From contig OZ025220.1 in the NCBI GenBank assembly GCA_964019055.1, positions 8,986,647 to 9,050,646 on the forward strand: a stretch of DNA of 64,000 nucleotides, read 5' to 3'. The DNA comes from Anthopleura xanthogrammica (lineage: Eukaryota > Cnidaria > Anthozoa > Actiniaria > Actiniidae). The first letter of the stretch is position 1, and every line of letters starts with the position of its first letter. Made by a program: the position numbers and the translations under genes. Below the pieces are notes generated by a model. That model did no database searches and was not told the DNA's origin. It worked only from the letters and a program-made list of their open reading frames with translations. Positions 4,277 through 59,520 of the stretch are shown here, piece after piece.

Positions 4277-4640
4277 GACATTTCGGTTATTCTCTGGATT
4301 AAAGCGGTTGTCGTATGGGTGGGAAACATACGGGATTGAATTACAACACGTTCACGATTCGACATGCCCTATCATTGAAATGGCTTCCCATAAGAATGGT
4401 TATCGTATGAGTGGGAAACATACGGTACTCCCTTACAGCACGTACACCGTACGACATACCCGGCCGTAACATTGAAATGGCTTCCCATAAGAATGGTTAT
4501 CGTATGAGTAGGAAACATACGGTACTCCCTTACAGCACGTACACCGTACGACATACCCGGCTGTAATATTGAAATGGCTTCCCATAAGTATGGTTATCGT
4601 ATACCGTACTAAATTACAACACGTAAACGGTACGGTATGC
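4277..4640. repeat. ~98-bp tandem repeat downstream of the ankyrin-kinase gene
   Basis: Copies starting at about 4373, 4471 and 4569 share ATTGAAATGGCTTCCCATAA, GGTTATCGTATGAG and GCACGTACACCGTACGACAT. A more diverged copy precedes them from about 4277. The unit contains short GTACGGT/ACCGTAC-type inverted pieces. The array ends about 170 bp before the stop codon of the minus-strand gene and could lie in its 3' untranslated region or just beyond. Confidence 0.8.
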
Positions 4641-4812
4641 CGTAAAGAAACCCTGTCAGTGACCACCCTCAGTGTCTGTCATTCCAACTAACCATCTCTC
4701 ATATCTGTAAAGCACTTTTTAGTATATACTTAGAAATGTATCATAATCATATAATATGTAACTTGTAAATACTCATCGTTAATAACATGTTACCTGTTCG
4801 TTTTGTGACTCA

Positions 4813-7800
4813 CTACTTCATCACATACTTGATCTCTTCTTTCTGATCCCATCCATGAGTGGTTACAGTCTTGTAGACTTCCATCACAAGATTTGGAAAA
4901 TATTCCAAGAACACAAAGTCTTCCAGCAACTGTTTTATGATTGGTGCTGGTCGCGAGCTTCCAGAGACATGTGCAATGGCGTTTCGTATAAAGCGCACTA
5001 ACTCTACCGTAGAGAAATGATCATATGGCGTTTTCCTTTTGAGCATCATTTCCGTGTAAATGGCAGGCATGTGTGTATAACCTGGGTCATTCCAATTCAC
5101 ATGTTTGACTATGGTACCAAAGCTTGCTTCCAGGTCATTCTCAACAGCAGTCAAGGTATAGGTCACTTTAGCACGTGGGCATTCAAATTCTGGTTGATTA
5201 CCAACAGCAATGAGAAGATCCTGCTTTTTCTTTTTTGGCCAGAAAAAGGGATGATCCAATGCTTCATCTGCAGGTGGTCGTTTACTTTCATCTCCATCAA
5301 GCATTACTTTAAAGAGATGAGCTGCTTCAGGACACAGAGAATCATCCCATCCTTCCATTTTTCCATTTAGTGTATTATCTTCAGTCTCGTGGTTGATCTG
5401 TTCTTCACTTTTATTGGCAAGATCAGATGGTGCAAATGGATGTCCTTTCATTGACAAGATGTAATGAAGAACAAGACCACAGGTAAAGACGTCCGATTCT
5501 TTTGAATGCTGCTCACCTGCTTTGATAGACTTTAATACTTCTGGAGCAATCCAACATCGGGTACCTACATTAGTACCATACACTGTTGTACAGGCACTAT
5601 CGATGCGACGGCTTAGACCAAAGTCAGCGATTTTCAAGCAAAGCTCGGGATGGCATTTGTAGAGAATATTACTTGGCTTCAGATCTCGGTGAATAATTTT
5701 CTGACTGTGCAAATATCTCAAGCCACTCACCACGTTTTCACATAACAAAACTCCTTTAGTTTTGTCAAAGTAAGGACCGTCCAAGTAATTAACTAGAGTT
5801 CCTTCCATCAGTTCTAAAACTACGTAAGAAAAGTTTTCATCTTCAAAGAAGGACAAATAACGAACGACTTGCTCGCAGTCTGCAAGAGCAGTGAGATTTG
5901 TTATTTCTCGTTTGTCTTCTGGCCGTTGCATGTGCCTCTTTTCAATACGTTTGATGGCCACCTCTCTACCATCTTTCTCGTTGATTCCTGCATATACAGC
6001 ACCAAATGAACCATCTGCCAAATGGTCTTTGTAGTACCAGTATGATTTAAAATGCTTACTTTCTTGGTGCCTTGCTACTTTGGCCAATTTGTCTTTGAAA
6101 GTGTTAGAAGTCTCAGTCCAAGGAATCAGCAAAGGAACTTGTTTGATATCTTGTGGTTTTGTCAGAAGGTCTTTGAGTGCAGGATTGGTCTTGGCTATAT
6201 CGAGACAAGACTTACCAGTTGAATCTGGAATTCTACAATCAGCACCAAACAAAAGAAGCTGTTTGGCAATAGTCCAGTAAACTTCTTTGTCATTGCTTTC
6301 CGCCAAAACATGATATCCACTAAAATTCTCCACTATATTCAGGCAGCAGTGATGAAGCGGTGAGGTTTCATTGTTGTGTCCCATTACAGTGGATCCACTA
6401 ACTGACTTTAAAATCATTTCCGCAAGATTACTTTTCCAATGGGCGCGTGTGGATTTATCCTTACATATTGCGTTCAGAAGTGAGACTGCAATAGTTTCCG
6501 ACTGAAGGTGGTTGTCATCGCGAGCCACTTCAACCAAGGCTTTAGCGAGAACAAATTGATCTGATTTGATGAGAACACTCAAAACAGATTCACCACGTTT
6601 GTCAACAGTCCATGGATCAAGACCTCTTTCGATAGCGCTTCTCCAGAACTCATGAGACTCGAGTTTAACATCAAAATAAAGACTGTTTTCGTCAAGGAAA
6701 TGCGGCAAGCTTTGGGCAGAAAAAAGAGGTTGGCGTCCCAATGAATCAGCCAAAACCTTGTGCTGGGCAGATTCTGCCGCAACAAGAAGAGGTTGGCGTC
6801 CCAATGAATCAGAAACGCATGGATCTGCTCCAGCATCTAATAACAGTGTGACTGCAGTCCAGCTTGAACATACGTGGAGAGGTGTTTTCCCTTCATCGTT
6901 GATAATATTTAAGCTGGCTCCATATTCTAGGAGATTGTTTAAAACTGTTTTTAGAGTATTTTCAAGAACTTTGACGCCATTCACTTTTAAAGTTGCCCAA
7001 ATATGAAGCGGTGAGTCTAGATCAACATTCTTTCTCAGGTTGATTGTGTCTTTTTCCACATATAGCGTGGTCTTAAAAATCGATAGGACTATACGAACTG
7101 CTTCTTCTTCTTGTTCTTCTTCTAAAATCCATCCTCTACAAATTTCTTGAAGCAGATCTAAGAGCAAATGAAAGACTGAGTACCCACTTGACGTTGTCTC
7201 TTCTGCGCATGAACCATGTTCCAATAAAAACGTGTAAACATCTCGCAAGATCCTGATTTTTAAAACTTCATTATCTTCCCAACAATGTGCTGGATGATTT
7301 AATGGAGAAAGGCAAAATAGAAGAGGTGTTTCTCTTTGATGATTCCTGATGTTGAAGATCACTCCAAAGTTTTCTAGTTGATGGCATATCTTCATAACCG
7401 TTTCTCGAGAAAGACCATAAAGTGGTAAGCAAGTGGCAAAATGAAGTGCAGTGTTTCCATGTGCGTCAGCACTGTTTGGATTTGCACCTAATTCTATGAG
7501 ATGTGACAAAATGTCTGGCGCCAGAAATTCATAAAACTTTTGAAAGTCTCTTGATTCGTCTTGCACCATTGTCAAAATATTGTCAATAATCTTCTTTTTG
7601 GTATTGTGTGTTTCCGTTGTATAATCGCTTGCTAATATTAGAATGTTAAAGAGAGGCTTGATTTCATTTCTTTCACAACGAACTGAAACGTAAGAGGCCA
7701 CGAGAATTGTCTTGCAAAAGACGACATTGATTATTGCTTCAAAAACTGAGTTTCTCGTTATCCCGTGCTGTAGAAACAGGTCTAACACTTTGTGCATGTC

Positions 7801-10260
7801 ACGTGGCAATGAGGGATACACGCGCGCGTTCCAGATGTCAAGGGTTACCATACAGTTTTCAATAAAAAATGCCAAGGCACTTACACCACAGTTGTCTCTG
7901 ATCGACAAATTTGCTCCTTTTTCAATAAGGTAAGTATATATGGACAATGATTTTCCAATGGCATAAAAAATTGGGGTTCTGCCATCGATATATCTTGCAT
8001 TAACATCCGCATTTCCATCTTCAACTAATGCTTGAACAATGTTCATTCTTGCAGGTTTGCCGGCAGGTTCAGCTCGAAACATGAATACATCAGTTTCCTT
8101 TTCTTTCGAGACATCCTCATAAACCAGGAGATTAACAGTAGCGAACAATACTGTGTGACCACGACAATCAGATATATTCGCATCAGCACCATCTTCAATT
8201 AACCTATGGGTTAATTCTACATCATCTCCTATTGCAGCCCAGTATAAAACAGTTTTACCCTGTTTATCAACTTTGTTGACATCCAGCCCAGCATTGATCA
8301 AGCCATCAATCATATGTTTAAAGTCAGAATATTGATTCCCACTCCATGATGTTGTAGCAAAATAAAACAAAGCAGTTCTCCCTTCATTATCAACTTTGTT
8401 GACATCTAGTCCAGCATTGAGTAAGCCATCAATCATGTGTTTAAAGTCAGAATATTGATTCCCACTCCATGATCTTGTAGCAAAATAAAACAAAGCCGTT
8501 CTCCCTTCATTATCAGTTTTGTTGACATCAGCTCCAGCATCAATCAATCTTTGAACAACAGTGAAATCAAAGGATTGATTCTTAACTGCATCAAATAAAG
8601 GTGTATTGCCTTGTCTGTCATGTGTATTAACATCTGCACCAGCCGCAATTAACACATCAAGAAACCGAAAATCACCACTGTAGCACCAAGCCAGAGCACT
8701 AACAAGTGCAGTTTTACCGAAGACATTTTTAATTTCTAAGTCTGCACCAGCTTTAATCAGTGCACAAACAGAACGAAAATCACCACACTCAACAGCTTTC
8801 GACAATGCAGTTTCACCTTCTATAGTAGTGCTATCTATGTCTGTACCAGCATCGAGCAGTGCTTGAAGAACACTGTTGAAAGTAGAGTGAGTACCGTATA
8901 CGTAACCATACCAAAACATGCCGTCGTTCCAAGCCGGAATGGAATCTGCTCCTTCTTCAATTTGTGCAAGAATTTCAGTCTTATCGCGGCCCGATTGAAG
9001 AAGAGACTTCACATCTGTGATGATTCTAAACAGAGCAGTTTGTTTTTTATGATCCTTTACATTGACATCTACACCAGCATCAATCAGTGCAGATATCAAG
9101 GTAAGATTTCTAAGTTTTACAGCATAAAACAAAGCTGTTTGGCCAGTCTTGCCCTCATTATCTGTACAGTTCACATCAGCACCAGCATCAATCAATGTAC
9201 GAACAACATGTTCACTGCCACAGCAATACACTGCTTTAAACAAAGGAGTTTGTCCATTCTTGTCAGTGACATTCAAATCAGCACCAGCATCAATCAAGAT
9301 TTGAAGCACATTTGCATTGTTACTTTGTCGAACAGCATAAAACAAAGCAGTTTTCCCCTCATTATCAGTTACGTTGACATCCGCACCAGCATCAATCAAT
9401 ACTTGCTCCATGACTTCGTTGTCACTTTGGACAGCAGCAAAAAGAGGAGTCTTGCCATTCTTATCAGTGAAATTAACATCGGTACCATTACCTAGTAATA
9501 CATGAACCAAACTGACTTTGTTATTATTAACAGCATCAAATAAAACAGTTCTACCATTATACTTATCTCCTACAATATTGACATCAGCACCAGCATCAAT
9601 CAGTAATCGCACCATACTTTCATTGTTATTTTGAACAAAATGGTCTAAAACAGTTCTAGGGCTAATTCCAAGCCATCTATTATATACGGTTATATTGACA
9701 TCAGCACCAGCATCAATTAATAACTTCACCATAGCTTCATTGTTTTTTTGAACAGCATCACACAGTGGATTTTGGCCATAATAACTAGTTGTATTGACAT
9801 CAACACCAGCGTTAATTAATAACTTCGCCATAGCTTCATTGTTATTTTGAACAGCATAAAAGAAAGCAATTCTACCTCCGAACTGTTTATTTACAATACT
9901 GACATCAGCACCAGCATCCTTTAATAACTTCCCCATAGCTTCATTATTTTGAATAGCAAGAAACAAAGCAGTTTTGCCATAATAACTAGTAATATTGAAA
10001 TCAGCACCAGCATCAATTAGTATTCGCACCATACTCTCATCGTTATTGTGAACAGCATCAAACAATCCATAACTTGGATTGACCCCCGCCTCAATTAATT
10101 CAGAAACCTTACTTGTATCACCATTTTTAACGGCATGTTCCAAATTGTCTATCAACTTCAAATTATATTTGTAAACCGGGTTCAAAGATTCGCTTCTTGC
10201 AGTGATTTCGTCCAAAAGTTCTTCATCTTCACTCGTCCTCTCAAATCCTCCTTCAGCCAT
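4813..10260 (-). CDS. ankyrin-repeat / protein kinase / KEN ribonuclease protein (RNase L-like)
   Basis: A single uninterrupted 1,815-codon frame. Residues ~35-1385 are about 30 ankyrin repeats with a recurring DAGADVN...GKTALF pattern. Residues ~1405-1670 are a protein kinase that keeps its key residues: glycine loop DGSFGAVYAG near 1415, VAIK lysine K1437, HRDLKPSN with D1526, DFG with D1546, and an APE motif near 1572. Residues ~1672-1812 match the KEN domain shared by RNase L and IRE1, including the RNxxxH motif (R1759, N1760, H1764) that carries the RNA-cleaving residues in that family. IRE1 would have a signal peptide, lumenal domain and membrane helix; none is present, so the order matches RNase L, a cytosolic 2-5A-activated antiviral RNase in vertebrates. 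Human RNase L is about 740 residues with nine ankyrins; this one is more than twice as long. Ligand and function are inferred. The coding region has no intron, unlike its neighbours. An in-frame duplication is visible at 8281-8526. Confidence 0.93.
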   Translation of the reverse strand: MAEGGFERTSEDEELLDEITARSESLNPVYKYNLKLIDNLEHAVKNGDTSKVSELIEAGVNPSYGLFDAVHNNDESMVRILIDAGADFNITSYYGKTALFLAIQNNEAMGKLLKDAGADVSIVNKQFGGRIAFFYAVQNNNEAMAKLLINAGVDVNTTSYYGQNPLCDAVQKNNEAMVKLLIDAGADVNITVYNRWLGISPRTVLDHFVQNNNESMVRLLIDAGADVNIVGDKYNGRTVLFDAVNNNKVSLVHVLLGNGTDVNFTDKNGKTPLFAAVQSDNEVMEQVLIDAGADVNVTDNEGKTALFYAVRQSNNANVLQILIDAGADLNVTDKNGQTPLFKAVYCCGSEHVVRTLIDAGADVNCTDNEGKTGQTALFYAVKLRNLTLISALIDAGVDVNVKDHKKQTALFRIITDVKSLLQSGRDKTEILAQIEEGADSIPAWNDGMFWYGYVYGTHSTFNSVLQALLDAGTDIDSTTIEGETALSKAVECGDFRSVCALIKAGADLEIKNVFGKTALVSALAWCYSGDFRFLDVLIAAGADVNTHDRQGNTPLFDAVKNQSFDFTVVQRLIDAGADVNKTDNEGRTALFYFATRSWSGNQYSDFKHMIDGLLNAGLDVNKVDNEGRTALFYFATTSWSGNQYSDFKHMIDGLINAGLDVNKVDKQGKTVLYWAAIGDDVELTHRLIEDGADANISDCRGHTVLFATVNLLVYEDVSKEKETDVFMFRAEPAGKPARMNIVQALVEDGNADVNARYIDGRTPIFYAIGKSLSIYTYLIEKGANLSIRDNCGVSALAFFIENCMVTLDIWNARVYPSLPRDMHKVLDLFLQHGITRNSVFEAIINVVFCKTILVASYVSVRCERNEIKPLFNILILASDYTTETHNTKKKIIDNILTMVQDESRDFQKFYEFLAPDILSHLIELGANPNSADAHGNTALHFATCLPLYGLSRETVMKICHQLENFGVIFNIRNHQRETPLLFCLSPLNHPAHCWEDNEVLKIRILRDVYTFLLEHGSCAEETTSSGYSVFHLLLDLLQEICRGWILEEEQEEEAVRIVLSIFKTTLYVEKDTINLRKNVDLDSPLHIWATLKVNGVKVLENTLKTVLNNLLEYGASLNIINDEGKTPLHVCSSWTAVTLLLDAGADPCVSDSLGRQPLLVAAESAQHKVLADSLGRQPLFSAQSLPHFLDENSLYFDVKLESHEFWRSAIERGLDPWTVDKRGESVLSVLIKSDQFVLAKALVEVARDDNHLQSETIAVSLLNAICKDKSTRAHWKSNLAEMILKSVSGSTVMGHNNETSPLHHCCLNIVENFSGYHVLAESNDKEVYWTIAKQLLLFGADCRIPDSTGKSCLDIAKTNPALKDLLTKPQDIKQVPLLIPWTETSNTFKDKLAKVARHQESKHFKSYWYYKDHLADGSFGAVYAGINEKDGREVAIKRIEKRHMQRPEDKREITNLTALADCEQVVRYLSFFEDENFSYVVLELMEGTLVNYLDGPYFDKTKGVLLCENVVSGLRYLHSQKIIHRDLKPSNILYKCHPELCLKIADFGLSRRIDSACTTVYGTNVGTRCWIAPEVLKSIKAGEQHSKESDVFTCGLVLHYILSMKGHPFAPSDLANKSEEQINHETEDNTLNGKMEGWDDSLCPEAAHLFKVMLDGDESKRPPADEALDHPFFWPKKKKQDLLIAVGNQPEFECPRAKVTYTLTAVENDLEASFGTIVKHVNWNDPGYTHMPAIYTEMMLKRKTPYDHFSTVELVRFIRNAIAHVSGSSRPAPIIKQLLEDFVFLEYFPNLVMEVYKTVTTHGWDQKEEIKYVMK

Positions 10261-11660: not shown

Positions 11661-11962
11661 TATATGTGATCGTACCATACATTTCATATTCCATCATCAT
11701 ACGCAAAACCAACATTATCATGTATTTTCCTTAGACATTTCTGTGACTGTAGCTTATACAGTACGTTTGTCACAATTAAACCCACATTAACGACCTACTC
11801 GCCATTAGAATCTCCAGCAGCTCAGTGGTAGAGCGTCCGGGAGGGTCGTGGGTTCGATTCCCATCTGGGGCTCAGAATTTTTTCTAAGTCCATTCAGTAT
11901 GGTACGATCACATATATATTTCATATTCCATCATCATACGCAAAACCATCATTATCATATAT
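11661..11962. repeat. pair of ~60-bp direct repeats flanking a tRNA-like element
   Basis: 11661-11722 and about 11898-11962 share TTTCATATTCCATCATCATA and CGCAAAACCA...CATTATCAT. The first reads in from TATGTGATCGTACCATA, and the second from the exact reverse complement, TATGGTACGATCACATA. So each repeat has an inverted first part and a direct second part. Confidence 0.7.
11812..11873 (+). pseudogene. tRNA-like remnant (SINE head or tRNA pseudogene)
   Basis: An A-box-like GCTCAGTGGTAGAGC (a 4-bp D stem) and a B box GGTTCGATTCCC within a 5-bp T stem are present. CTCCAG and CTGGGG can pair as a shortened acceptor stem. Only about 13 nt (GTCCGGGAGGGTC) lie where the anticodon arm should be, so there is no anticodon loop and it cannot be a working tRNA. 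It may keep RNA polymerase III promoter boxes. Confidence 0.7.
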
Positions 11963-18900: not shown

Positions 18901-21575
18901 TACACAGAGTACTTTCACTTACAATTCTTCGTTATGGACCAACAAAGCTACTTTCCAACCAGGAAACGGCCAAAATCTCGCAGAACAAGAAACGAAGCTG
19001 CCATCCTATTGGTTGACACCGATGACGAAAATCTGCCTCGGTATGAAGAACGGCGCTCATACCAACTGGATTAAAATCAACCAATCAGGAAAATCCCTGT
19101 ATGACGTCATAAAGGATGGAAAGTTTAAGAAAGGAAATCTGCCTGCGAGTACTTGGAAGTCTCTGTTGACTGGCAGCTCTATTGAGGTGATTAGCATTTG
19201 TATGTTACGACTGACTGACTGACTGACTGACTGACTGACTGACTGACTGACTGACTGACTGACTGACTGACTGACTGACTGACTGACTGACTGACTGACT
19301 GACTGACTGACTGACTGACTGACTGACTGACTGACTGACTGACTGACTGACTGACTGACTGACTGACTGACTGACTGACTGACTGACTGACTGACTGACT
19401 GACTGACTGACTGACTGACTGACTGACTGACTGACTGACTGACTGACTGACTGACTGACTGACTGACTGACTGACTGACTGACTGACTGACTGACTGACT
19501 GACTGACTGACTGACTGACTGACTGACTGACTGACTGACTGACTGACTGACTGACTGACTGACTGACTGACTGACTGACTGACTGACTGACTGACTGACT
19601 GACTGACTGACTGACTGACTGACTGACTGACTGACTGACTGACTGACTGACTGACTGACTGACTGACTGACTGACTGACTGACTGACTGACTGACTGACT
19701 GACTGACTGACTGACTGACTGACTGACTGACTGACTGACTGACTGACTGACTGACTGACTGACTGACTGACTGACTGACTGACTGACTGACTGACTGACT
19801 GACTGACTGACTGACTGACTGACTGACTGACTGACTGACTGACTGACTGACTGACTGACTGACTGACTGACTGACTGACTGACTGACTGACTGACTGACT
19901 GACTGACTGACTGACTGACTGACTGACTGACTGACTGACTGACTGACTGACTGACTGACTGACTGACTGACTGACTGACTGACTGACTGACTGACTGACT
20001 GACTGACTGACTGACTGACTGACTGACTGACTGACTGACTGACTGACTGACTGACTGACTGACTGACTGACTGACTGACTGACTGACTGACTGACTGACT
20101 GACTGACTGACTGACTGACTGACTGACTGACTGACTGACTGACTGACTGACTGACTGACTGACTGACTGACTGACTGACTGACTGACTGACTGACTGACT
20201 GACTGACTGACTGACTGACTGACTGACTGACTGACTGACTGACTGACTGACTGACTGACTGACTGACTGACTGACTGACTGACTGACTGACTGACTGACT
20301 GACTGACTGACTGACTGACTGACTGACTGACTGACTGACTGACTGACTGACTGACTGACTGACTGACTGACTGACTGACTGACTGACTGACTGACTGACT
20401 GACTGACTGACTGACTGACTGACTGACTGACTGACTGACTGACTGACTGACTGACTGACTGACTGACTGACTGACTGACTGACTGACTGACTGACTGACT
20501 GACTGACTGACTGACTGACTGACTGACTGACTGACTGACTGACTGACTGACTGACTGACTGACTGACTGACTGACTGACTGACTGACTGACTGACTGACT
20601 GACTGACTGACTGACTGACTGACTGACTGACTGACTGACTGACTGACTGACTGACTGACTGACTGACTGACTGACTGACTGACTGACTGACTGACTGACT
20701 GACTGACTGACTGACTGACTGACTGACTGACTGACTGACTGACTGACTGACTGACTGACTGACTGACTGACTGACTGACTGACTGACTGACTGACTGACT
20801 GACTGACTGACTGACTGACTGACTGACTGACTGACTGACTGACTGACTGACTGACTGACTGACTGACTGACTGACTGACTGACTGACTGACTGACTGACT
20901 GACTGACTGACTGACTGACTGACTGACTGACTGACTGACTGACTGACTGACTGACTGACTGACTGACTGACTGACTGACTGACTGACTGACTGACTGACT
21001 GACTGACTGACTGACTGACTGACTGACTGACTGACTGACTGACTGACTGACTGACTGACTGACTGACTGACTGACTGACTGACTGACTGACTGACTGACT
21101 GACTGACTGACTGACTGACTGACTGACTGACTGACTGACTGACTGACTGACTGACTGACTGACTGACTGACTGACTGACTGACTGACTGACTGACTGACT
21201 GACTGACTGACTGACTGACTGACTGACTGACTGACTGACTGACTGACTGACTGACTGACTGAATAAATGAATGACTGAATAAATGAATGAATGAATGAAT
21301 GACAATTAATTAATTGGCTTTTTTTTACATTATCCTTCAAGACTGGTTGCTTTCTCGAGGGCTTCAACGTAGACACAAACACGTACCCAGGGGCTGCGAG
21401 GGCTCGTATCGGAATAATTGGCTTCCAGCGTAACTGCAGTTTTGCATCAACATCTCGTATAGGGTACGGCACCTCGGGAAACAATTACGGTATGGACGAC
21501 AAAAACTCGTGTGGCAATGAGAATGGACCAAATAGCACATCAATAAAAGCTTTTGGTTATGTGTTTGTCCAGTGA
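12914..21575 (+). CDS. secreted PAN/apple plus fibrinogen-like protein (skeletal-matrix-protein-like), six exons
   Basis: Exons: 12914-13207, 15949-16042, 17829-17883, 18700-18832, 18908-19186, 21342-21575. All junctions are GT-AG and phases agree (0, 1, 2, 0, 0), giving 362 residues with no internal stop. Residues 1-19 are a hydrophobic signal peptide. Residues ~20-98 are a PAN/apple domain ([16 protein letters not shown], then GSCELN). Exon 2 encodes a short cysteine-rich linker ([11 protein letters not shown]). Exons 3-6 encode a fibrinogen-like C-terminal region, with SCKDVYQ at its start, [13 protein letters not shown] in exon 4 and [15 protein letters not shown] near the end. This layout matches proteins annotated in corals as uncharacterised skeletal organic matrix proteins; an anemone copy would be secreted but not mineral-related. 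The ATG context AAAATGG is good. Intron 5 is mostly (GACT)n. Family and exon structure are well supported; the role is unknown. Confidence 0.88.
14105..14410. repeat. imperfect (GGAT)n microsatellite
   Basis: Runs of GGATGGATGGA mixed with GGATGGACAGAACGATGGAT variants in intron 1 of the PAN/fibrinogen-like gene. The Ile/His/Pro/Ser reading frames on the minus strand are by-products of the repeat. Confidence 0.9.
14926..15035. repeat. purine-rich (GAAA)n tract
   Basis: Interrupted GAAA/GAAAG repeats in intron 1 of the PAN/fibrinogen-like gene. Confidence 0.85.
15273..15450. repeat. GAGGA-rich minisatellite with ACACGAGCGATGA units
   Basis: AGGAGAGGAG runs alternate with GACACGAGCGATGA..CGAGAGG units, three clear copies between 15352 and 15450. 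It ends just before a dispersed repeat that starts at 15467. Confidence 0.8.
15467..15689 (+). repeat. dispersed ~220-bp repeat, copy 1 of 3
   Basis: Begins TGTTGCTCAGGGTTAGCC, holds GTTGAAGTTGTGCATTC and GAAATGAGGCTATCCCTGAG, and ends near ACAGCGGTATTGTACG. Related copies lie at 33325-33540 and 51628-51835 in the same orientation. No ORF, terminal repeats or tRNA boxes are visible; it could be a SINE body or a LINE tail. Confidence 0.8.
15742..15916. mobile_element. foldback MITE with GCAGTGCATTGTGGGA core
   Basis: Outer arms (TAGCCATTCGCCGAGCTTGAGG at the left end, CCTCAAACTCGAAAAGGCTA on the right) and inner arms (TGCAGTGCATTGTGGGA and TCCCACAATGCACTGTG) are inverted. An inverted copy of the inner part lies at 50733-50838. 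It ends about 30 bp before exon 2 of the PAN/fibrinogen-like gene. Confidence 0.75.
16111..16314. mobile_element. foldback element with GGGTTTCAC arms
   Basis: Left TGGGTTTCACTATACGTCAG and TTCCTGTCTCGT oppose right ACGAGACAGGAA and GAAAGTGAAACCCA. It abuts the MITE starting at about 16320. Confidence 0.65.
16320..16449. mobile_element. Tc1/mariner-like foldback MITE, TAGACCCCTTG family, copy 1
   Basis: Ends TAGAGCCCTTG and AAAGGGGTCTA, each next to a TA, which fits the TA target duplication of Tc1/mariner elements. Inner arms GGACAAAACAATAGG and TTTTGTTTTGTCC make it foldable. Other copies: 17959-18100 and 29800-29929. Confidence 0.75.
16578..16680. repeat. poly-C run and short CCTGAACTACGAGTA repeats
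   Basis: A run of C at about 16580-16593 lies among several copies of CACCTGAACTACGAGTATCC; related CACCTGAACAAGGAGTAT appears again near 17068. Bases 16690-17165 hold nothing else recognisable. Confidence 0.7.
17172..17759. mobile_element. nested foldback element, outer TIR TAGAGTGCTTACAC
   Basis: Near-perfect inverted ends of about 45 bp (left 17172-17218, right about 17714-17759) contain TAGAGTGCTTACACTATGTC and ATTTCATGGACATAG. A second inverted pair inside (AGTCACTATCACTCAACTGG near 17250, CCAGTTGAGTGATAGTGACT near 17370) marks an inner fold. The right half, about 17415-17712, is a copy of the element at 18157-18447, so one element sits inside another. Confidence 0.75.
17959..18100. mobile_element. 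Tc1/mariner-like foldback MITE, TAGACCCCTTG family, copy 2
   Basis: Ends TAGACCCCTTGCAGCACG and CAAGGGGTCTA with TA on both sides. It is preceded by another ATAGACCC end at 17946, suggesting insertion into or beside a related copy. It lies in intron 3 of the PAN/fibrinogen-like gene. Confidence 0.75.
18157..18447. mobile_element. compound foldback element, free-standing copy
   Basis: Near-identical to 17415-17712. It has AAAAACCTACTAATGGTC and GATTAGTAGGTTTTT as one inverted pair, then AACAATTAGACCTCTCG and CGAGGACTAATTGTT as a second. The two side-by-side folds suggest two fused MITEs moving together. Confidence 0.7.
19209..21262 (+). repeat. perfect (GACT)n array, about 513 units
   Basis: About 2,054 bp of GACT with no interruption that I can see. 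It starts 22 bp after the donor of intron 5 of the PAN/fibrinogen-like gene and ends 79 bp before the acceptor. A short AATGAATGA-type tail follows. The long Ser/Gln/Val frames on the minus strand exist only because the AGTC repeat has no stop in any frame. Confidence 0.97.
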
Positions 21576-25046: not shown

Positions 25047-26188
25047 ATGGAACTCCACTACATTCCACTGGTAGTGTTATTATTCATGGCCTGTTATCTT
25101 CAAAACGGTAAGTACTGGATGTCATTAGTAATTATAATTTTAAGTAGCTAGTCATCATTTACTGTCGGGGGGGGGGGGGGGGGGGGGGAGGGAGGAATGG
25201 GGTGGAAGGATTTCTGCCACAGCATCATAAAGATTAACTGAAAGGTTTTTATACTAGAGTTGGATGATATTATGCTAGACCACAAAAAAATCATGTTCAC
25301 TATCTCAAAAAAAGGTCTATAGTTTGTTCATATTAGCGTTTGTTTATCCCCGGGTCATGCTCTTCTTAACCCATGATAGACCACAATGCACCATGTTATG
25401 AAGGGGGATTGATTCCTTATATGGTGTTGTTCCTACCCAAGCTAGAACACAATGCTCCATGTTATGAAGGGGGATTGATGTCTTATCTGGTGTTGTTAGT
25501 ACCCAAGCTAGACCACAATGCACCATGTTATGAAGGGGGATTGATGCCTTATCTGGTGTTGTTAGTACCCAAGCTAGACCACAATGCACCATCATGTTCG
25601 TTACCTCAAAAGGTCTATGAAGGGGATTGATTCCTTATAGGGTGTTGCTTGTACCCAAGCCAGACCACAATGCACCATGTTCGTTATCTAAAAGGTCAAT
25701 GAAGGGGGATTGATTCCTTATATTGTCTTGCTTGTACCCTAGCAAGACCACAATGCACAATGTTCGTTTTCTCAAAAAATGAGGTCTATAATTTAATTAT
25801 ACCAGCGTTTTTTTTATCGCCAGGTTATGCGCTGAAGTGCTATTCCTGTACTGTTAGTGGTTCATCACCAGATCTAAAATGTAACGGTACTTTACAAAAT
25901 TGCACAAGCGACGAACCATTTTGCAACATCTACACAGCCAAAGGAAGTGACAACATTTCTGATTTTACTCGTGCCTGTGTTAGATCCGAGGTCTGTGAAT
26001 TAAATTATTGTCAGGACACAATTGTAGGACAATATGGGAAGACGAAGTGTGCTATATCTTGTTGCAAAGAAGATTTATGTAATCGTGATGTCATCAAAAG
26101 AGTCTACGGTAGTTCTAGTGGTCAGCTGACAGTGCGTGGATTACATATTGCTCTAGCGGTTGTTTTTATCGTGGTATATGTCAGTTGA
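25047..26188 (+). CDS. Ly6/uPAR (three-finger) GPI-anchored-type surface protein, two exons
   Basis: Exons 25047-25107 and 25824-26188, phase 1, GT-AG, 141 residues. Exon 1 encodes a signal peptide (LVVLLFMACYLQNG). Exon 2 starts with a cysteine pattern typical of the LU domain: KCYSC at the mature start, paired cysteines through the middle and ISCCKEDLCN at the end, the family's CCxxDxCN signature. There are 12 cysteines in the domain region against the usual 8-10, so an extra pair may exist. The C-terminus is hydrophobic with no charged tail (HIALAVVFIVVYVS), as expected for GPI attachment. Partner and role are unknown; the family includes receptors, complement regulators and ion-channel modulators. 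A longer in-frame start inside the intron (25760) lacks the signal peptide and is rejected. Confidence 0.88.
25165..25190 (+). repeat. poly-G run
   Basis: About 20 consecutive G in the intron of the Ly6/uPAR gene, on the coding strand; able to form a G-quadruplex and prone to length change. Confidence 0.85.
25278..25790. repeat. 66-bp minisatellite in the Ly6/uPAR intron
   Basis: GACCACAATGCACCATGTT recurs at about 25379, 25445, 25511, 25577, 25662 and 25746, with GGGGGATTGATTCC and a CCCAAGCTAG junction in each unit. The last copies are about 85 bp because of an added GTTCGTTATCTCAAAAGG piece. The array ends just before the exon 2 acceptor. Confidence 0.85.
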
Positions 26189-34900: not shown

Positions 34901-37900
34901 ATTGCAAAGCAGATGCAAGGAACATTGCAAAATGTAACACCACGTTTACAGCCATTTCAAAAAAGGTTGGTGAAGATTTTGTTGCTTGTTGCATATTGCA
35001 GTGACGGGTGATGTGAATTCAACCAGCGAGAGGTCACAACAATTTGGAATTTTCCCAAAATTTATCTGCAGGTCTTTTTCAGCATATTTTCTTCTGTGTT
35101 GACATTATTTACATATGAATATAATACATTTTAATCTTGGTAAGCAACATGCAACATGCAACATGCAACATGCAACATGCAACATGCAACATGCAACATG
35201 CAACATGCAACATGCAACATGCAACATGCAACATGCAACATGCAACATGCAACATGCAACATGCAACATGCAACATGCAACATGCAACATGCAACATGCA
35301 ACATGCAACATGCAACATGCAACATGCAACATGCAACATGCAACATGCAACATGCAACATGCAACATGCAACATGCAACATGCAACATGCAACATGCAAC
35401 ATGCAACATGCAACATGCAACATGCAACATGCAACATGCAACATGCAACATGCAACATGCAACATGCAACATGCAACATGCAACATGCAACATGCAACAT
35501 GCAACATGCAACATGCAACATGCAACATGCAACATGCAACATGCAACATGCAACATGCAACATGCAACATGCAACATGCAACATGCAACATGCAACATGC
35601 AACATGCAACAAAACCTTCACCACCCTTTTTTGAAATGGCTGTGTATTAGATAGATTGATTCTTGTTCATTTTATCCAGGTCCAAAGCTTGTCATAGCCA
35701 ATACCAGTTATTATAGCGTGTTGAGCTTGATCAGTGTCTCTCCTGGTGACAATGGAAATATATCATGTGAAAGGAACCAAACAGAAGATTTACATTTCTC
35801 TCTTAGCGTACAAGGTAAATATTTGAATACATTTGATCTGACTGACTGACTGACTGACTGACTGACTGACTGACTGACTGACTGACTGACTGACTGACTG
35901 ACTGACTGACTGACTGACTGACTGACTGACTGACTGACTGACTGACTGACTGACTGACTGACTGACTGACTGACTGACTGACTGACTGACTGACTGACTG
36001 ACTGACTGACTGACTGACTGACTGACTGACTGACTGACTGACTGACTGACTGACTGACTGACTGACTGACTGACTGACTGACTGACTGACTGACTGACTG
36101 ACTGACTGACTGACTGACTGACTGACTGACTGACTGACTGACTGACTGACTGACTGACTGACTGACTGACTGACTGACTGACTGACTGACTGACTGACTG
36201 ACTGACTGACTGACTGACTGACTGACTGACTGACTGACTGACTGACTGACTGACTGACTGACTGACTGACTGACTGACTGACTGACTGACTGACTGACTG
36301 ACTGACTGACTGACTGACTGACTGACTGACTGACTGACTGACTGACTGACTGACTGACTGACTGACTGACTGACTGACTGACTGACTGACTGACTGACTG
36401 ACTGACTGACTGACTGACTGACTGACTGACTGACTGACTGACTGACTGACTGACTGACTGACTGACTGACTGACTGACTGACTGACTGACTGACTGACTG
36501 ACTGACTGACTGACTGACTGACTGACTGACTGACTGACTGACTGACTGACTGACTGACTGACTGACTGACTGACTGACTGACTGACTGACTGACTGACTG
36601 ACTGACTGACTGACTGACTGACTGACTGACTGACTGACTGACTGACTGACTGACTGACTGACTGACTGACTGACTGACTGACTGACTGACTGACTGACTG
36701 ACTGACTGACTGACTGACTGACTGACTGACTGACTGACTGACTGACTGACTGACTGACTGACTGACTGACTGACTGACTGACTGACTGACTGACTGACTG
36801 ACTGACTGACTGACTGACTGACTGACTGACTGACTGACTGACTGACTGACTGACTGACTGACTGACTGACTGACTGACTGACTGACTGACTGACTGACTG
36901 ACTGACTGACTGACTGACTGACTGACTGACTGACTGACTGACTGACTGACTGACTGACTGACTGACTGACTGACTGACTGACTGACTGACTGACTGACTG
37001 ACTGACTGACTGACTGACTGACTGACTGACTGACTGACTGACTGACTGACTGACTGACTGACTGACTGACTGACTGACTGACTGACTGACTGACTGACTG
37101 ACTGACTGACTGACTGACTGACTGACTGACTGACTGACTGACTGACTGACTGACTGACTGACTGACTGACTGACTGACTGACTGACTGACTGACTGACTG
37201 ACTGACTGACTGACTGACTGACTGACTGACTGACTGACTGACTGACTGACTGACTGACTGACTGACTGACTGACTGACTGACTGACTGACTGACTGACTG
37301 ACTGACTGACTGACTGACTGACTGACTGACTGACTGACTGACTGACTGACTGACTGACTGACTGACTGACTGACTGACTGACTGACTGACTGACTGACTG
37401 ACTGACTGACTGACTGACTGACTGACTGACTGACTGACTGACTGACTGACTGACTGACTGACTATAATGGCTCATACTCAGTTGTTATATAAATCTCAAT
37501 TTTTACGTAGGACAATGTAGGGATATTTTTAATACTGTTACGTGCAAAGGAACAGTGGATGGAGGAGATGACTGTACAAACCCTTGGATGGTAAATAACT
37601 GTCAAAAATCATGTGGTCTTTGTCCAAGTGAGTATTTATTGTTAATCTTTTGCATGGCCAGCCTGCATATTCCCAGATCAGGACCCAAGTACTAGGGGCC
37701 TCCATCTCCCATACTGGGTCTGTGAGCAAGCCTATTCCCAGATCAGGACCCCAGTACTAGGAGCATCCATCTCCCATACTGGGTCTGTGAGCAACATATT
37801 CCCAGATCAGAACCCCAGTACTAGGAGCATCCATCTCCCATACTGAGTTTGTGATCAGCATATTCCCAGATCAGAACCCCAGTACTAGGAGCATCTATCT

Positions 37901-43600: not shown

Positions 43601-46600
43601 GACATGGTTTGTGCGGATCGCGACCACGAGAAGGAAATCGTGACGATACGAGTTGAAGTCGATGATGAATTTGAAGTCGATGATGAATTTGAACCCGAAC
43701 TAATAACGCAGCATTCAGTCGAAAAAATTAAGGGTTCAGTAAACGATAGTTACCATGGGCAACAGCGCTCTTCCACCAGCAAAACAGTTGGCAGTGATGA
43801 CGTCATGCCTAAAATTCACTTCCGTGTCGAGAATCAAAGCACAATATCTTCAAGCCTTTTGACACCAGGGTCAAAAGAAGCAGCGCCTTCAGGAAAAAGC
43901 CTTAATGATATCAGCGCCAGTACTGGATCGTTCGGTAGGTCGCCATCTTGGAACGCTGACAGGCAATCAAAGATGGAGAAGCTAATGAATGAAGAGCTTG
44001 ATGTTCATCCTTCCATCAGAAACGTGTCGCCTGCTTTAGGATTCACACGGAGCGTGGTTGCTGCGTGCTTCGATGAAGTGGACGAAGAAGGAGAAGGCGA
44101 GAAGGAGGCAGAAAATGAAGCCAAAGGAAGCACCAAAGGTGGCAGCGACTGAGTAAAAAAAATTTGCTGGCAGCCATGTTGAATGGGGTACAAGTCGGTG
44201 AATGACTTAAAAAACTGAATTGTTTTTTCAACTGTCATCCCAATCTTATGATTATTTGCTCATCATGCATGTTTTTAACAAGATTTCCTTTTTTCATGTT
44301 CCTTGGCACTAAAAGCTAAGAAAAACTTCCACATTTCTAAGATATTATGGGTGACAACACTGGATCAAATTATTTTGTTAATAAATATTAGAATACCATT
44401 AATTATTAATACAACTATAATCTGTCTCCATATTTTTGAGATATAAGGGTTTGACAGGATGTGTGCATTTATATTTATTAAGATATTATTAATTACTAAT
44501 AAAACTAATCTATTGTGTGAATCTGTGGAGTAAATGAATCAGTTTTATGTTTAGATTTTGCCATTCAACATGGCTGCCAGGATAGTGTCTTGCTATACCA
44601 TGGTCATTGTTAATATAGTATCAGTCAAACTCGTTGGATTTGGGTTATCTTTAGGATTAGAGATAGGGTCCCCTCCTTTAGCCCCCCACCTCCCCCAAAT
44701 CACAAAAAAAAATTCAAGGGGTGAGGGCATTCTCCCGGACCCCCTGATTAGGGCCTCATTCAAAACTATGCTCAACGGTCTCTAATAACCAGCTGAGTTG
44801 ACCTTCAGTATGAACTCAAGGTCAACCAATCAGAATTGAGGATTTGACATGTATTTTATGAATTAGCAATTTTTAGCAATGTCCCTGCTCAAAAAATACT
44901 AACCAAAAATAATTGACCTATAATACCCTTCAGGGAACATGATCAACTCATGATCAGCAAGTACAAGGGGTAGAAAGAACGATGCTGACGGATTAAACCA
45001 ATCACTGCGCGCGAATATGTTAACCTATCATACGAAGCTAGCCGAACACTATGTATCCTAATATCAAATTAATTCTTACTTTTAGTCACCAGTCCTCCAA
45101 AGCCGGAAGACTCCAAAAATAGCGAAAAGACTGGGAACGAGAATGTTAGTAACGATGTTGACAAAGAAAAGAGTGCGAATTCTAATTCGTCTGGTCACGA
45201 GGAACCAGTACAAAGTACTGAGAAAACTGGAAATCAGGAATCTTCAAGTGAACATACTCCCAAAACAGACATTGGTAGAATTAATGACCCGTCAAGTTAC
45301 GCTGATACTCCAAAACCAGGTATTGAACACGTGACCAGAAATACGGGAGATCACGTGCCCATGTCCAAAGAAATACACGAGACTAAAGATGATAAAATTG
45401 CTGATAGTCAGATGAATATCATCGTAGATGAAAATGAAAGGCAAAATGAGAGTCGGACTGAAACAACAAATAATCATGTGAGCGGAAGTAAAGGTGATCG
45501 GACAGTTGATCATGTGACCGAAAGTGCGGATAATCAGGCATTAGATCATGTGACTGGAAGTACAGAAGATAAGGCAGATGATGATGTAACTGGAAGTACG
45601 GATAATCAGGCAGTTGATCATGTGACCGGAAGTACAGATTTCCAGGCTGTTGATCATGTGACCGAAAGTAAGGATAATCAGGCAAAAGATCATGTGACCG
45701 GAAGTACAGTTAATCAGGCCAGTGATCATGTGACAGGAAGTAAACATAATCAGGCAGTTGACCATGCAACCGGAAATACAGATGGTCACGTGAAAGATAT
45801 AAATCCACCTTCAGACAATGTGGTTGCTAGTGGCAACAGTCACGTGACTGAAGATTCCCCGTCAATAAAGCAAGATGGTCAGCCTACTGACCAAACTGAT
45901 CCTGATTCACAAAGAAAACTAGCTACTACTTTACGATTTGCCTGCAAGGCGTTACCATGGCAACACATACGAGACCAGGCCTCCTTGGGAGTTACGTCAT
46001 TGAATCTTTCCCGCGCGCTGAGATGGCGTGAGTACGGCGTTAAGGATTTGGTTCGAAGTCTAAGGAATCTGAAGGAACTTGATGTGTCAAATAATGTCCT
46101 TGGACCTCAAGGGTTCAGGGTGCTGTGTTTGGGTGTGGCACAGAACAAGACGCTGAAGTCGCTGAATATGGCAAACAACTTATCTGACACAGAATCGTCG
46201 GTGAGTACCACACTTGATATGGAACCAACAAATACAGTAAGATCAGACGATGTTGATACCAAGCCAAGGAATACTCTCTGGTTGATGGCACATGACGGGC
46301 AGTGTTTGCCTGTTATTGTGGGCTGGTTATGACATTCATGAAATTCATGCAGCTGATTGATACCAAGCAATAGAATACTCTCTGATTGATATGGACAATT
46401 GCAGTGTTTGCCTGTCATTGCAGGCTGGTAATGGAATACAGGAAATTTAAATTTATCTTGATCAATCCACAGAAAGCTTTAGGTACCATGTTGTCTTCAA
46501 ATACCTGCCTGGAATTCCTGGACGTGTCTGGTAATGACCTGGGTAAAGACTACTTTTCCCGTTGCGTTGGGCCAGCTTTACAAGTCAATACGTCACTCAA

Positions 46601-49600
46601 AGCGTTAAAGTGCGCGAGCTGTGGGTCTAATGACATGTCTGCCATCTTGGATGCTTTGAGTGGTAACCATGGTAACAGAGCTCTGGAGGAATGGGACGTT
46701 AGTAATAATCAGTTGGGGGAGAAGTTTGGTAAAGGCATTGAAGAAGTGCTTAAGGTAATGAAGTGAGCCAAACATTTTATGCGAAAGGGTATTTTGTTCT
46801 TCTTTTGTTTTCTTTCCTGTCTTTTCTCCTCTCCTCTCCTCTCCTCTTCTCTCCTCTTCTCTCCTCTCCACTTCCCTTCCCTTCCTTTCCCTTCCCGTTC
46901 ATTTCCTTCCCTTCCATTTCCTTCCCTTTGCATCTCTTTTCTTGTATGTATACCTTTTTTTTTTTCATTTCATACTTCAATGTTTTTTTTTCGCTTTCGA
47001 ATTTTTTTAATTCAGATTCCCGAGTGTAGCCTGAAGTATTTAGATGTTCATGCTACTGATCTTGAGGCTGGTGGTATGGCTGCTCTTCTCGCTGGAGTGA
47101 AAAACAATGGGAGCTTGGTTAGATTGAATGCTGGTGGTCACAAGGTGAGTTATTACATAATAGGAATGGTATCATGTGTCTTCATCATTATTATCATACT
47201 CCACCATCATCATCATTATCATGCATCAAAATTATCATCATCTGATCATACAACATCATTGTATCAACACCATCATAATCATCATGTATCATCATCATCA
47301 TCATTCACCATCATGTACCATCATCATCATCATTCACCCTCATCATCATCATCATCATGTACCATCATCATCATTCACCATCAACATCATCATTCACCAT
47401 CATCATCATTCACCATCATGTACCATCATCATCATTTATCATCATCATCATGCATCACTATCATCTTCATATATACACCCTCATCATAAGTCATCATCCT
47501 GCACCACCACCACCACCACCACCATTATCATCATGCCTCACCATTATCAACTTGTATTAACATCACCATCATCGCTATCATGTATCATCGTCATCAACAT
47601 CATTACATCTTCATTTGACAACAATATTATGCATCAATACCATCACCATCATGTATTACCAAGATCACCATCATACTATACCGTACTCATCATTATCATC
47701 GACTTCTTATTAAGTCATGATATTTACTTCATCATATTACAACCTCGTCAGTGATCTCTTCTTTACTCATGATTTTGAATACTTTTTCAGATCAGCAGTC
47801 TTTCATTCTTAATGGACTTTCTCTACACATGTATCACACATCCACTCCTCCAAGACCTGTCATTGGACAACTCCAAACCAGCAGAGATGAATGAATGGGA
47901 GAAAAAAGGTACCATGCATTTATACTATTATTATCATCGTCATCATCATCATGCATCATCATCATCATGCATCATCATCATCATGCATCATCATCATGCA
48001 TCATCATCATCATGCATCATCATCATCATGCATCATCATCATCATGCATCATCATCATCATGCATCATCATCATGCATCAACGTCATGAATCAACATAAC
48101 CATCGTCTTTATACACCCTCATCATGTATCGTCATCACCACCGTTACTATCATTATGCATCATCATCATCATCATCACCCTCATCATCATCATCACAATC
48201 ATCACTGCTACCATAATGCATCATCATCGCAATCATCGTGCATTTTCATCATCACCGTCATCAACTTGTATCATCTTCATCATTATCATCAATGCCGTCA
48301 CCACCACCATATGTCATCATCATCATTAATATTATCATTAACATTTTCCCTTATATTTTATTTTAGCCATTGCAGAATTACCCAAGCCATCATCCTCTAG
48401 TATAACAAATCTTAGCCTAGCAGGCTGTTCTCTGAGCGATGCCCTCATATCATCTCTTGCTGAAGAGACGTCAGGATTACTGTCCAAGCTTGCTGTGGTA
48501 AATCTGTCTGGAAATAACGACATTACAGGAGAGAGTGTACGCTCAATATGCACCATGATAACAGCAGGTAATTATGATGATGATCATGATGGATGATGTA
48601 GATGCAGGATAATGATGACCATGATAATGGTGATGATGATACATGATGATGATACATGAAGATAATGATGATGATGCATAATGATGATAATCATGGTGGT
48701 GATACATGTTGATAATGGTGATGCAGGATGATGGTGATGATGGTGAAGATAATAATATTGTTGATGATAAACATGATAATGATGGTTGTAATATTAATAA
48801 TGATTATTCATTAGACCAGTTGATGATATCCACATTATATACAAGACATTTTGTGATGATCATTGATTGCAAACACAATTGTTTTTCAAAACCATCATTC
48901 CATTGTTTTCCAGGTGACGGGCAACGATCAAACGTTCTAGAATCTCTTGATTTCGCCCTCAACAACGCGGAAACAATTCCTGATATCTTAAGCACAACTA
49001 CGCTCTCTAAACTAAAACACTTGAACTTGAGGAAGGCTAAAATATCACCAGGAAAAGTAATGGAACTACGTCAACATCTCGTCAAAAAAACCCAAGAGAA
49101 TGACGTCACGATTACGTCACTTAATCTTGACTCAATCAAACTTTCAGGAACAAACACCTTGCAAAGCATGCTGGGATTGTCCGAGGACTTTGTACCCACG
49201 ATGCCTTGCGCGCTTACCTCGCTGTCTTTGAGCGGTTGTAGTTTGAATGATAAGGACATCAAGCCGTTGTTTGTGGGGATTGCGAAAGGACTGGGTCTGG
49301 CTCATGTTAATTTGTCAAGCAATCGATTGACTGACACGAGCGTTGATTGGTTGGTTGATTCAATGGAGGAGCCGTGTGCGCTATGCCATCTGGATTTATC
49401 CAATAATAAGGTATGGCATTCATGTTCTCCCTCCCCTTAGTTACCGTTGCTATGTGCCACAAGCTCGACAAATTAGCTGGAATATCTCAAAATTGAAAAT
49501 TCTGATTGCGGATATTTGATTACAAATTGTTTTAATTTACCCTTCCCTAACAGGCTTGAGTGACCACAGAACAATAGATTCAAGTCGAGGCTGGGGTTTT

Positions 49601-57711: not shown

Positions 57712-57990
57712 TCTGAGGTTAAAATAAAATAATAATAATAATAATAATAATAGTAATAATAGTTTTAGTTATCAAATTCAGGTTTTGTTGGAGGGAGGGG
57801 TGAGGTTTGCTTTCATTTTAATCTTTTTCATAAAAAGCATTTAAATTTTTTTTGGTAAAAATTAACGTTTTACATGTGGATCTATAAAGAAAAGTTATTT
57901 GTTAGTTTTTTTACTTGGAAAAAAAGAGAAATAATTTTATAATGGCTACCCTGGGATATTATAATAGATAGGATTATTAATAGAATATAC

Positions 57991-58522
57991 AATAGCAATA
58001 TATAATGGGTAGAATAGAGTAAAGAAAAGAATATGGAATTGTCATAATATAATAGCAATATATAATGGATAGAATAGAGTAAAGAAAAGAATATGGAATT
58101 GTCATAATATAATAGCAATATATAATGGATAGAATAGAGTAAAGAAAAGAATATGGAATTGTCATAATATAATAGCAATATATAATGGATAGAATAGAGT
58201 AAAGAAAAGAATATGGAATTGTCATAATATAATAGCAATATATAATGGATAGAATAGAGTAAAGAAAAGAATATGGAATTGTCATAATATAATAGCAATA
58301 TATAATGGATAGAATAGAGTAAAGAAAAGAATATGGAATTGTCATAATATAATAGCAATATATAATGGATAGAATAGAGTAAAGAAAAGAATATGGAATT
58401 GTCATAATATAATAGCAATATATAATGGATAGAATAGAGTAAAGAAAAGAATATGGAATTGTCATAATATAATAGCAATATATAATGGATAGAATAGAGT
58501 AAAGAAAAGAATATGGAATTGT
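57991..58522. repeat. 60-bp minisatellite, nine near-identical copies
   Basis: Units begin AATAGCAATATATAATGGAT at 57991 and every 60 bp to 58471. Eight look identical except for one G/A change in the first. Because 60 is a multiple of 3, repeated 20-residue frames appear on the minus strand; they lack any gene context. Confidence 0.97.
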
Positions 58523-58574
58523 GACAGTCATAATATAATGAAGAGGGTCCTGAAGGGCTAAAATGGGAGCTGGG

Positions 58575-58700
58575 ATTTTCTTTTCTTTTCTTTTCTTTTC
58601 TTTTTTTTTTCTTTTTTTTTTTTTTTGCCTAGGAAAATGGGATTTCATGCACTGAGACTGGGATCTAACCATTACTGGGACTGGGATCTAACCATTACTG
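58575..58700. repeat. (CTTTT)n tract and GACTGGGATCTAACC repeats
   Basis: TTTTC runs at 58577-58628, then three copies of ACTGGGATCTAACCATTACT from 58656. Confidence 0.8.
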
Positions 58701-59100: not shown

Positions 59101-59393
59101 TTACATCAGGTACTTGGCAACAGCAAGAGCCATGGCGAGGAGAGTCAGGAACGTCACAGGCTTCAAGGGTACACTTCCGTTACACAGGTCACTGTCACAG
59201 CAATAGGCCTCACAGTCTTGGCTTTCACAAACTTTCTTGGCTGAACTACACATTAAGCTGTTACTGCATACCTTCTGAACCTTATCGCCTTTTTTCATCT
59301 TAAGGCATTGATCGAAGGAAGATTGGCATGTCTCCTTGCCAGTCTTACAGTTGCCATTTTCACCCGTACAGACATAACACTCAATGGACAGAG
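59101..59393 (-). CDS. Ly6/uPAR (three-finger) protein, terminal exon; signal-peptide exon not found
   Basis: The exon begins after a clean acceptor: on the minus strand a long TTC-rich tract ends in CAG at 59394-59396, and the next base continues in phase 1. The frame then gives SIECYVCTGENGNCKTG and a regular cysteine pattern ending EAYCCDSDLCN, the CCxxDLCN signature of the LU domain. Ten cysteines are in the expected order. The C-terminus (VTFLTLLAMALAVAKYLM) is hydrophobic, as for GPI attachment. The poly-serine stretch obtained by reading upstream of the acceptor is the pyrimidine tract, not protein. The first exon should lie at higher coordinates, perhaps beyond several kilobases; no convincing signal-peptide exon was found up to 62.5 kb. 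The phase-1 intron matches the Ly6/uPAR gene at 25047, a likely paralogue. Confidence 0.82.
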
Positions 59394-59520
59394 CTGAAGA
59401 AGAAGAAGAAGAAGAAGAATACATCAGTATAAGTTCTAACGTCGGCGATGCTTACGTGTCATACCAATACAAGTGCGAGCGAGGTATTCAAACTATTTGC
59501 GATAATCAAATGCTGTTATA

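Follow-up and report, generated by a model that had tools for sequence, protein, structure and literature searches.

The question raised by this locus is whether a sea anemone encodes a relative of RNase L, the RNA-cutting enzyme of human interferon defence, or has built a similar protein independently from an IRE1-like source. The stretch analysed (64,000 nucleotides of Anthopleura xanthogrammica contig OZ025220.1, hereafter the window) holds at positions 4813..10260, on the minus strand, a single-frame gene whose uninterrupted 1815-aa product is read as an ankyrin array, a protein kinase and a KEN nuclease. This is the domain order of RNase L, in one chain as in the vertebrate protein (PDB 4oau, 4o1o). 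RNase L and IRE1 both cut RNA once two kinase–KEN modules pair. The first-pass annotation of the window had pointed to this order in a single frame, and Pfam confirms it. What the letters alone could not show is that the gene has dozens of paralogs, where humans have one RNase L; judged by sequence, it belongs to a large anthozoan ankyrin–kinase–KEN family that is partly arranged in tandem. The interpretation that we favour, and hold to be fairly probable, is of a family of endoribonucleases working on the RNase L/IRE1 principle, in which sensing by a variable ankyrin arm would lead to RNA cleavage.

An in-frame TGA lies 10 codons 5′ of the ATG of the 1815-aa frame. When the whole protein was scanned against Pfam, Ank_2 matched at 2e-106 and Pkinase at 2.9e-53 (181 bits, residues 1412-1673), and the KEN family Ribonuc_2-5A (PF06479), against which the annotation had proposed that the nuclease be judged, matched residues 1708-1806 at 5.7e-8, with 33.4 bits against a cut-off of 23.3. 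On the minus strand the ankyrin array (residues 42-790) occupies 7891..10137, a divergent ankyrin-like neck and linker (residues 791-1379) 6124..7890, the kinase domain 5242..6027, and the KEN endoribonuclease domain (residues 1674-1815) 4816..5241, the last also being recovered in the search of the anemone's own genome (G000:C15:8991486-8991788). The kinase residues K1437, D1526 (HRD, 1524-1526) and D1546 (DFG, 1546-1548) and the KEN active-site motif R1759 N1760 ... H1764 (4969..4986, minus strand; placed by paralog and family alignments) all lie at the numbers first assigned to them. No lumenal-domain family was found in the protein by Pfam at E<=1e-3, its N-terminal part being ankyrin. Read from its sequence, the protein combines an ankyrin arm that varies among paralogs with a kinase in which none of the usual catalytic motifs is missing and a KEN domain whose active site is intact.

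The number of ankyrin repeats, put at about 30 in the annotation, needs qualification. An iterated profile scores 22, of which 20 precede residue 791 and the other two are weak; a first profile, which gave 16, was too weak and was set aside. Residues 780-1400 score poorly against the ankyrin profile, yet AlphaFold2 models them (pLDDT 78) as largely helical, and the top Foldseek matches of the model are ankyrin solenoids, the best being ankyrin-B (E 1.2e-10, with a TM-score of just 0.36 by query length). In the model the neck also looks ankyrin-like, which makes the higher figure plausible, while 22 repeats are what is actually scored. The neck and linker (residues 791-1379) can be aligned in 14 paralogs, which are 26-43% identical to the window row.

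How far does the gene stand alone? The genome (290 Mb, 125 contigs) was searched with profiles, the exon-level match counts being lower bounds. There are 79 KEN matches, all above the cut-off and none with an internal stop. Outside the genome's single IRE1 lie 77 of them; the other two are exons of that multi-exon gene, on contig 18 (G000:C18:6102185-6111949), which carries the signatures VSDRIEKE and HHY and is itself a useful cnidarian reference. Open frames of at least 1000 aa hold 56 of the 79 matches. Many KEN genes lie in same-strand clusters, and the window gene ends a row of six on contig 15, the 10.6-Mb contig that carries the window. We targeted 60 of the 79 places for closer reading; one more was read with the tandem locus described below, one lies inside the IRE1 gene, one is the window gene and the remaining 16 fell outside the sample. 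Among the 60 targeted loci, 48 have an open kinase–KEN frame, 11 are interrupted, by decay or introns, and one is IRE1. In 15 own-genome frames with an open kinase–KEN, taken from twenty 10-kb loci, the number of ankyrin repeats ranges from 0 to 57, with the proviso that short frames may miss upstream exons.

The family also extends beyond this genome. Three homolog searches were evaluated on their best 120 rows each. With residues 1380-1815, 1440 proteins match at E<=1e-3 among 7985 candidates scored (lengths ~998-3176 aa), so the gene is no chance arrangement. Among the best 120 of these 1440, PF06479 is also present in 115 (table read by eye) and all 18 rows that carry an organism name are anthozoan (Actinia, Exaiptasia, Actinostola and the octocoral Dendronephthya), in keeping with the invertebrate source proposed for the DNA. 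Homolog P0038 has tetratricopeptide repeats ahead of the ankyrins. In two others, P0095 (22-99) and P0101 (24-98), a death-effector-like domain precedes the ankyrins, kinase and KEN with 32.5 and 34.5 bits, just below the cut-off of 35.9; such a domain would link the family to cell-death signalling.

One paralog is of particular interest for the mode of activation. On contig 1 (L041/L070; G000:C1:27350852-27353720) a single 1604-aa frame contains two complete kinase–KEN modules head to tail, scoring 590 and 623 bits with the family profile. Both have VAIK, HRD and DFG motifs, and their KEN motifs, read by eye, are RFIRNAHAH and RFIRNAYAH. By its sequence this kinase–KEN–kinase–KEN protein looks like a possible natural, single-chain, built-in dimer, which fits activation by dimerisation. 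Divergent paralogs (L049, L059, L030 and L031) are 36-43% identical to the window kinase–KEN and retain the KEN R and H; L049 is the earliest-branching family member in the tree.

The catalytic residues are largely conserved in the family. In the window gene and 48 own-genome paralogs, the KEN residues R, N and H are present in 49, 48 and 49 of the 49 copies, and the kinase K, HRD-D and DFG-D in 48, 46 and 47; across 121 family rows the KEN counts are 117, 116 and 118, two rows being gapped there. The kinase–KEN half has a median ratio of non-synonymous to synonymous substitution (dN/dS) of 0.34 over 59 non-independent paralog pairs of at least 75% identity, which indicates purifying selection on this half. 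The ankyrin half is more divergent in seven of seven pairs (identity 59-76% versus 81-95% for the kinase–KEN half; dN/dS 0.40-0.79 versus 0.24-0.43), with many more gaps. Taken at face value, the alignments look as expected for an effector that stays fixed while its sensor diversifies.

The annotation had also contrasted the intact kinase of this protein with the pseudokinase of RNase L. As it was drawn, on K, D and D, the contrast does not hold, since the matching columns of mammalian RNase L hold these residues too (in 12, 11 and 12 of 12 rows). It survives on three other residues: HRD-R, the Lys two positions after HRD-D and DFG-G are kept in 69, 70 and 70 of 73 family rows and in none of the 12 RNase L rows, and the window gene has all three. 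The family therefore does not share the pseudokinase losses of RNase L, and retention of these residues suggests that its kinase is probably of the active type. A further difference is Y1746, mostly kept in the family and mostly missing in the RNase L rows of the alignment. In the KEN domain, the active-site residues R1759, N1760 and H1764 are common to both, as is W1723, the counterpart of the active-site residue W632 of RNase L.

Whether the ankyrin arm could bind 2′,5′-oligoadenylate (2-5A) in the manner of RNase L was assessed with a pattern built on residues of the W60, F126 and E131 type, which we take to form the 2-5A pocket in the human RNase L structure. The pattern requires aromatics two repeats apart plus a Glu. 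It was tuned on the RNase L set ahead of the counting, by accepting Ser and giving up the last aromatic. A stricter first pattern recovered only 44 (loose) or 24 (strict) of 114 RNase L proteins, its insistence on Thr in the loop being the probable cause, and was discarded. Of the 114 mammalian RNase L proteins, 104 carry the final signature; the 136 others (0/120 family, 0/15 own-genome and 0/1 window proteins) all lack it, some of the own-genome frames having only 0-4 repeats. A K89-like pattern gave a similar picture (51/114 versus 0/136), and in four family proteins two aromatic loops are correctly spaced but the Glu is missing. With the same profile, 110 of the 114 RNase L proteins have 8-9 ankyrin repeats against 22 in the window protein. 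The 2-5A site that the annotation had proposed to seek in the ankyrin groove is thus not supported, and on these sequences it is unlikely that the family is triggered by 2-5A in a pocket like that of RNase L. Because this signature is absent and the kinase looks active, we describe the family as RNase L-like, short of RNase L proper.

Descent was addressed with trees of 55 rows: 34 from the family, 12 from mammalian RNase L and nine from IRE1, including yeast, mosquito and the anemone's own. The organism-named RNase L rows are all mammalian and the named IRE1 rows vertebrate, yeast and one mosquito; RNase L-like proteins of fish, amphioxus and molluscs and other cnidarian genomes lay outside the sample. 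The rows sort into one group each for the family, RNase L and IRE1, and the family joins RNase L to the exclusion of IRE1 with support of 99/97, or 98/93 with KEN alone. In the approximately unbiased (AU) test, RNase L with vertebrate IRE1 is rejected when all groups are present (p 0.033), with p 0.097 once the family is removed; in the sets with one group removed, the family with vertebrate IRE1 gives p 0.10 and RNase L with the anemone's own IRE1 p 0.028. The family could have been a recent IRE1 duplicate, the outcome by which the annotation's suggestion of RNase L ancestry was to fall. This is not borne out: the best tree separates the family from the genome's own IRE1, and grouping the two is rejected without RNase L (p 0.017) and borderline with it (p 0.054). 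When either the family or RNase L is present alone, it attaches outside metazoan IRE1 (support for the metazoan IRE1 clade 99/95 and 90/87; 99/99 for KEN alone with the family), a position that could also reflect long-branch attraction to the single fungal outgroup.

The KEN columns give a mixed picture. With the stricter threshold, five are shared by the family and RNase L, four by the family and IRE1 and one by RNase L and IRE1. G-N at 1687-1688, after V1686, and F-I before R-N are mostly common to the family and RNase L, the IRE1 residues there being S-D and, mostly, A-M. The window protein reads V-G-N, F-I-R-N and H-V, while IRE1 has S in 9/9 rows, D in 8/9 and Y/F after the His in 9/9. 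The family has the kinase–KEN module in common with IRE1 (ERN1) and differs from it in having ankyrins in place of the lumenal sensor, in lacking the V-S-D and H-Y/F columns, and in coexisting with a separate, multi-exon IRE1 in the same genome. Overall, a non-endoplasmic reticulum (non-ER) kinase–KEN ancestor shared by the family and RNase L is probably the better account of these sequences. As to the ancestry first proposed, the trees favour it and it stays short of proof, because the AU test leaves alternatives standing (p 0.285-0.581 across the whole and KEN-alone sets).

The genome also contains OAS-like genes. The search for them that the annotation had recommended gave 15 OAS1_C matches, confined to 172 kb of contig 3 (G000:C3:8516523-8688008), four of them containing a stop. 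An exon of one of these genes carries GGSLGKGT...SDLD and VEVDLLP, presumably the three catalytic aspartates of OAS (OAS1_C 94.2 bits; NTP_transf_2 20.3 bits against a cut-off of 21). As exon-level lower bounds, there are 79 matches for KEN, 45 for Mab-21/cGLR, 29 for TIR_2, 15 for OAS1_C and three for STING, so that KEN is the largest of these five sets by crude match count.

In the portions available, a 2018 survey covering two corals, Nematostella, five other invertebrates and four sponges scored OAS as present and RNaseL as absent, its conclusion being that the pathway is missing (PMC6307210); a 2021 Nematostella study includes RNase L and OAS1 homologs in its list of poly(I:C)-responsive genes, RNase L being only mentioned there (PMC8476169). 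A survey of HEPN domains, as far as its available part goes, includes in its table a general mention of KEN fused with kinase and ankyrins, and makes the case for a defence role of HEPN/KEN families that have expanded (PMC3710099). The expanded KEN families of Oikopleura and monocots in that survey resemble the present one in being lineage-specific and in being proposed for RNA-level defence; they are described there apart from kinase, whereas the members listed here keep ankyrins and kinase and, in 115 of 120, KEN as well. We found no account of the anthozoan ankyrin–kinase–KEN expansion in the open literature, the range of our search, which did not take in subscription papers; PMC13319465, PMC8204762, PMC5094078, PMC9334734, PMC2852836 and PMC4419793 had no bearing on it. 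The set is unusually large and diversified, with an RNase L-like build and without two defining features of RNase L.

These observations can be combined into a working scheme. The protein would be cytosolic, and the ankyrin arm of each paralog would bind a ligand or partner tied to infection or stress. By analogy with RNase L and IRE1, binding would pair two kinase–KEN modules. The kinase would bind ATP and probably trans-autophosphorylate as IRE1 does, its active-type residues suggesting a switch gated by ATP and autophosphorylation, and the paired KEN domains would then cleave RNA. The family would probably derive from the non-ER kinase–KEN ancestor that it has in common with RNase L, and its trigger would probably be something other than 2-5A in an RNase L-type pocket.

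Several points weigh against this reading. The immune role is argued from the behaviour of the family and from the role of RNase L, and the interrupted frames, 11 of the 60 targeted, may reflect decay or introns. A hydrophobic stretch at ~838-860 (mean 1.9 at its peak, 842-860, against 2.4 for the IRE1 membrane helix on the same scale) lies within the solenoid model and makes membrane association conceivable in place of a cytosolic location. The divergence of the ankyrin half may partly come from aligning repeats that do not correspond. On descent, the AU test rejects neither RNase L with metazoan IRE1 (p 0.386) nor the family with metazoan IRE1 (p 0.285). The kinase-alone tree, which joins the family to RNase L with 93/77, was not used as support, since it carries a long-branch warning, long branches meeting, and both constrained alternatives score slightly above the free tree. 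Finally, we had considered linker homology as evidence for one joining event and dropped it. The profile of the family linker (1380-1410) gave a median of −1.1 bits on RNase L linkers (77 of 114 located), −1.7 on shuffles (95% at 0.8) and −1.5 on 95 IRE1 linkers; similarity to RNase L does not go beyond shuffles, so the ankyrins may have been joined once or twice.

Ankyrins are easily recruited, and the linker and AU results also suit a convergent build, in which the cnidarian line fused ankyrins to an early IRE1-like kinase–KEN copy, stripped of its lumenal and membrane parts, in an event separate from the origin of RNase L. We regard this as possible, if doubtful. Further points against common descent with RNase L speak for it: the kinase columns favour IRE1 over RNase L (14-23 versus 4-5 over two thresholds), as do the KEN columns at the looser threshold (8 versus 6), and structure ranks IRE1 first both by Foldseek, where the first 48 rows are IRE1, and by Z, with IRE1 above RNase L within the best 50 entries of the fold comparison. 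However, the kinase half contributes to this ranking as much as KEN does, and IRE1-like kinase columns are expected if the kinase of RNase L, a fast-evolving pseudokinase, has decayed. The stricter KEN columns, the G-N and F-I residues common with RNase L, and the attachment of either group alone outside metazoan IRE1 also run counter to convergence. A true RNase L ortholog system, in which anemone OAS would make 2-5A on double-stranded RNA to act through the ankyrin arms on the nuclease, the axis predating vertebrates, would account for the OAS cluster with its one apparently catalytic gene, the grouping with RNase L in the trees and, as far as it is reported, the poly(I:C) response of the Nematostella homologs (PMC8476169). 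Set against these are the missing signature (though a different pocket might take 2-5A), the 22 repeats in place of 8-9 and the active-type kinase, and we consider such a system decidedly unlikely.

The scheme that we favour, a sensor-driven endoribonuclease family, must also be compared with two accounts that dispense with an immune repertoire. IRE1 acts in mRNA splicing and decay, and a cytosolic, IRE1-like family with an intact kinase could process or decay host mRNA in stress or development. The number of copies, their tandem arrays, the fast divergence of the arms and the presence of interrupted copies are, in contrast, typical of conflict genes, and the case made in the available part of the HEPN survey is one of defence (PMC3710099); we think a purely regulatory role unlikely. 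That the family is an assembly artefact, a contamination or a dead repeat family has next to no chance of being correct. The interrupted loci would fit it, whereas the 48 open kinase–KEN frames, the 79 KEN matches without a stop, a dN/dS that stays far under 1 across the 40 pairs listed, the homologs in named anthozoans and the position of the window within a 10.6-Mb contig all contradict it.

Elsewhere in the window, an exon of a STELLO glycosyltransferase-like gene lies at 55948-56997 on the plus strand (PF03385, 97.8 bits), and exons of a leucine-rich-repeat gene, perhaps PPP1R37-like, at 45073-50705 (plus), with weak repeat matches. Two CD59/Ly6-like three-finger exons were seen at 25703-26188 (plus) and 59101-59451 (minus; 32.7 and 35 bits, cut-off 33.9), and a tyrosine recombinase fragment at 62739-63290 (plus; Phage_integrase 31.5 bits, DUF3504 27.8 against a cut-off of 29.7), which probably belongs to a Crypton- or DIRS-type mobile element. 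Repeats comprise two long simple arrays on the minus strand (19057-21484 and 35711-37484; (SQSV)n in several frames), a short palindromic repeat open on both strands (35103-35666) and a longer repeat (57882-58687). By eye, a short tandem repeat is found directly behind the KEN gene (4390-4660) and a tRNA-like piece, maybe a short interspersed nuclear element, upstream of it (~11800-11900).

What these genes may mean for anthozoans can be put tentatively, as an idea that could well prove wrong: a repertoire-type, RNase L-like immunity, with dozens of single-frame sensors whose receptor-like arms vary on a fixed RNA-cutting half. An ancestor with an active kinase, common to the family and RNase L, would have existed before the cnidarian–bilaterian split; vertebrate RNase L would be the lone pseudokinase survivor, tuned to 2-5A, and some copies, among them the tandem gene, would be built-in dimers. 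The presence of an OAS cluster together with dozens of RNase L-like nucleases makes it testable what the invertebrate OAS signal acts on, and whether the ancestor of RNase L was a pre-vertebrate active kinase. If true, such a receptor-like set of RNases, with ankyrin arms that vary, would give animal innate immunity an unusual layout.

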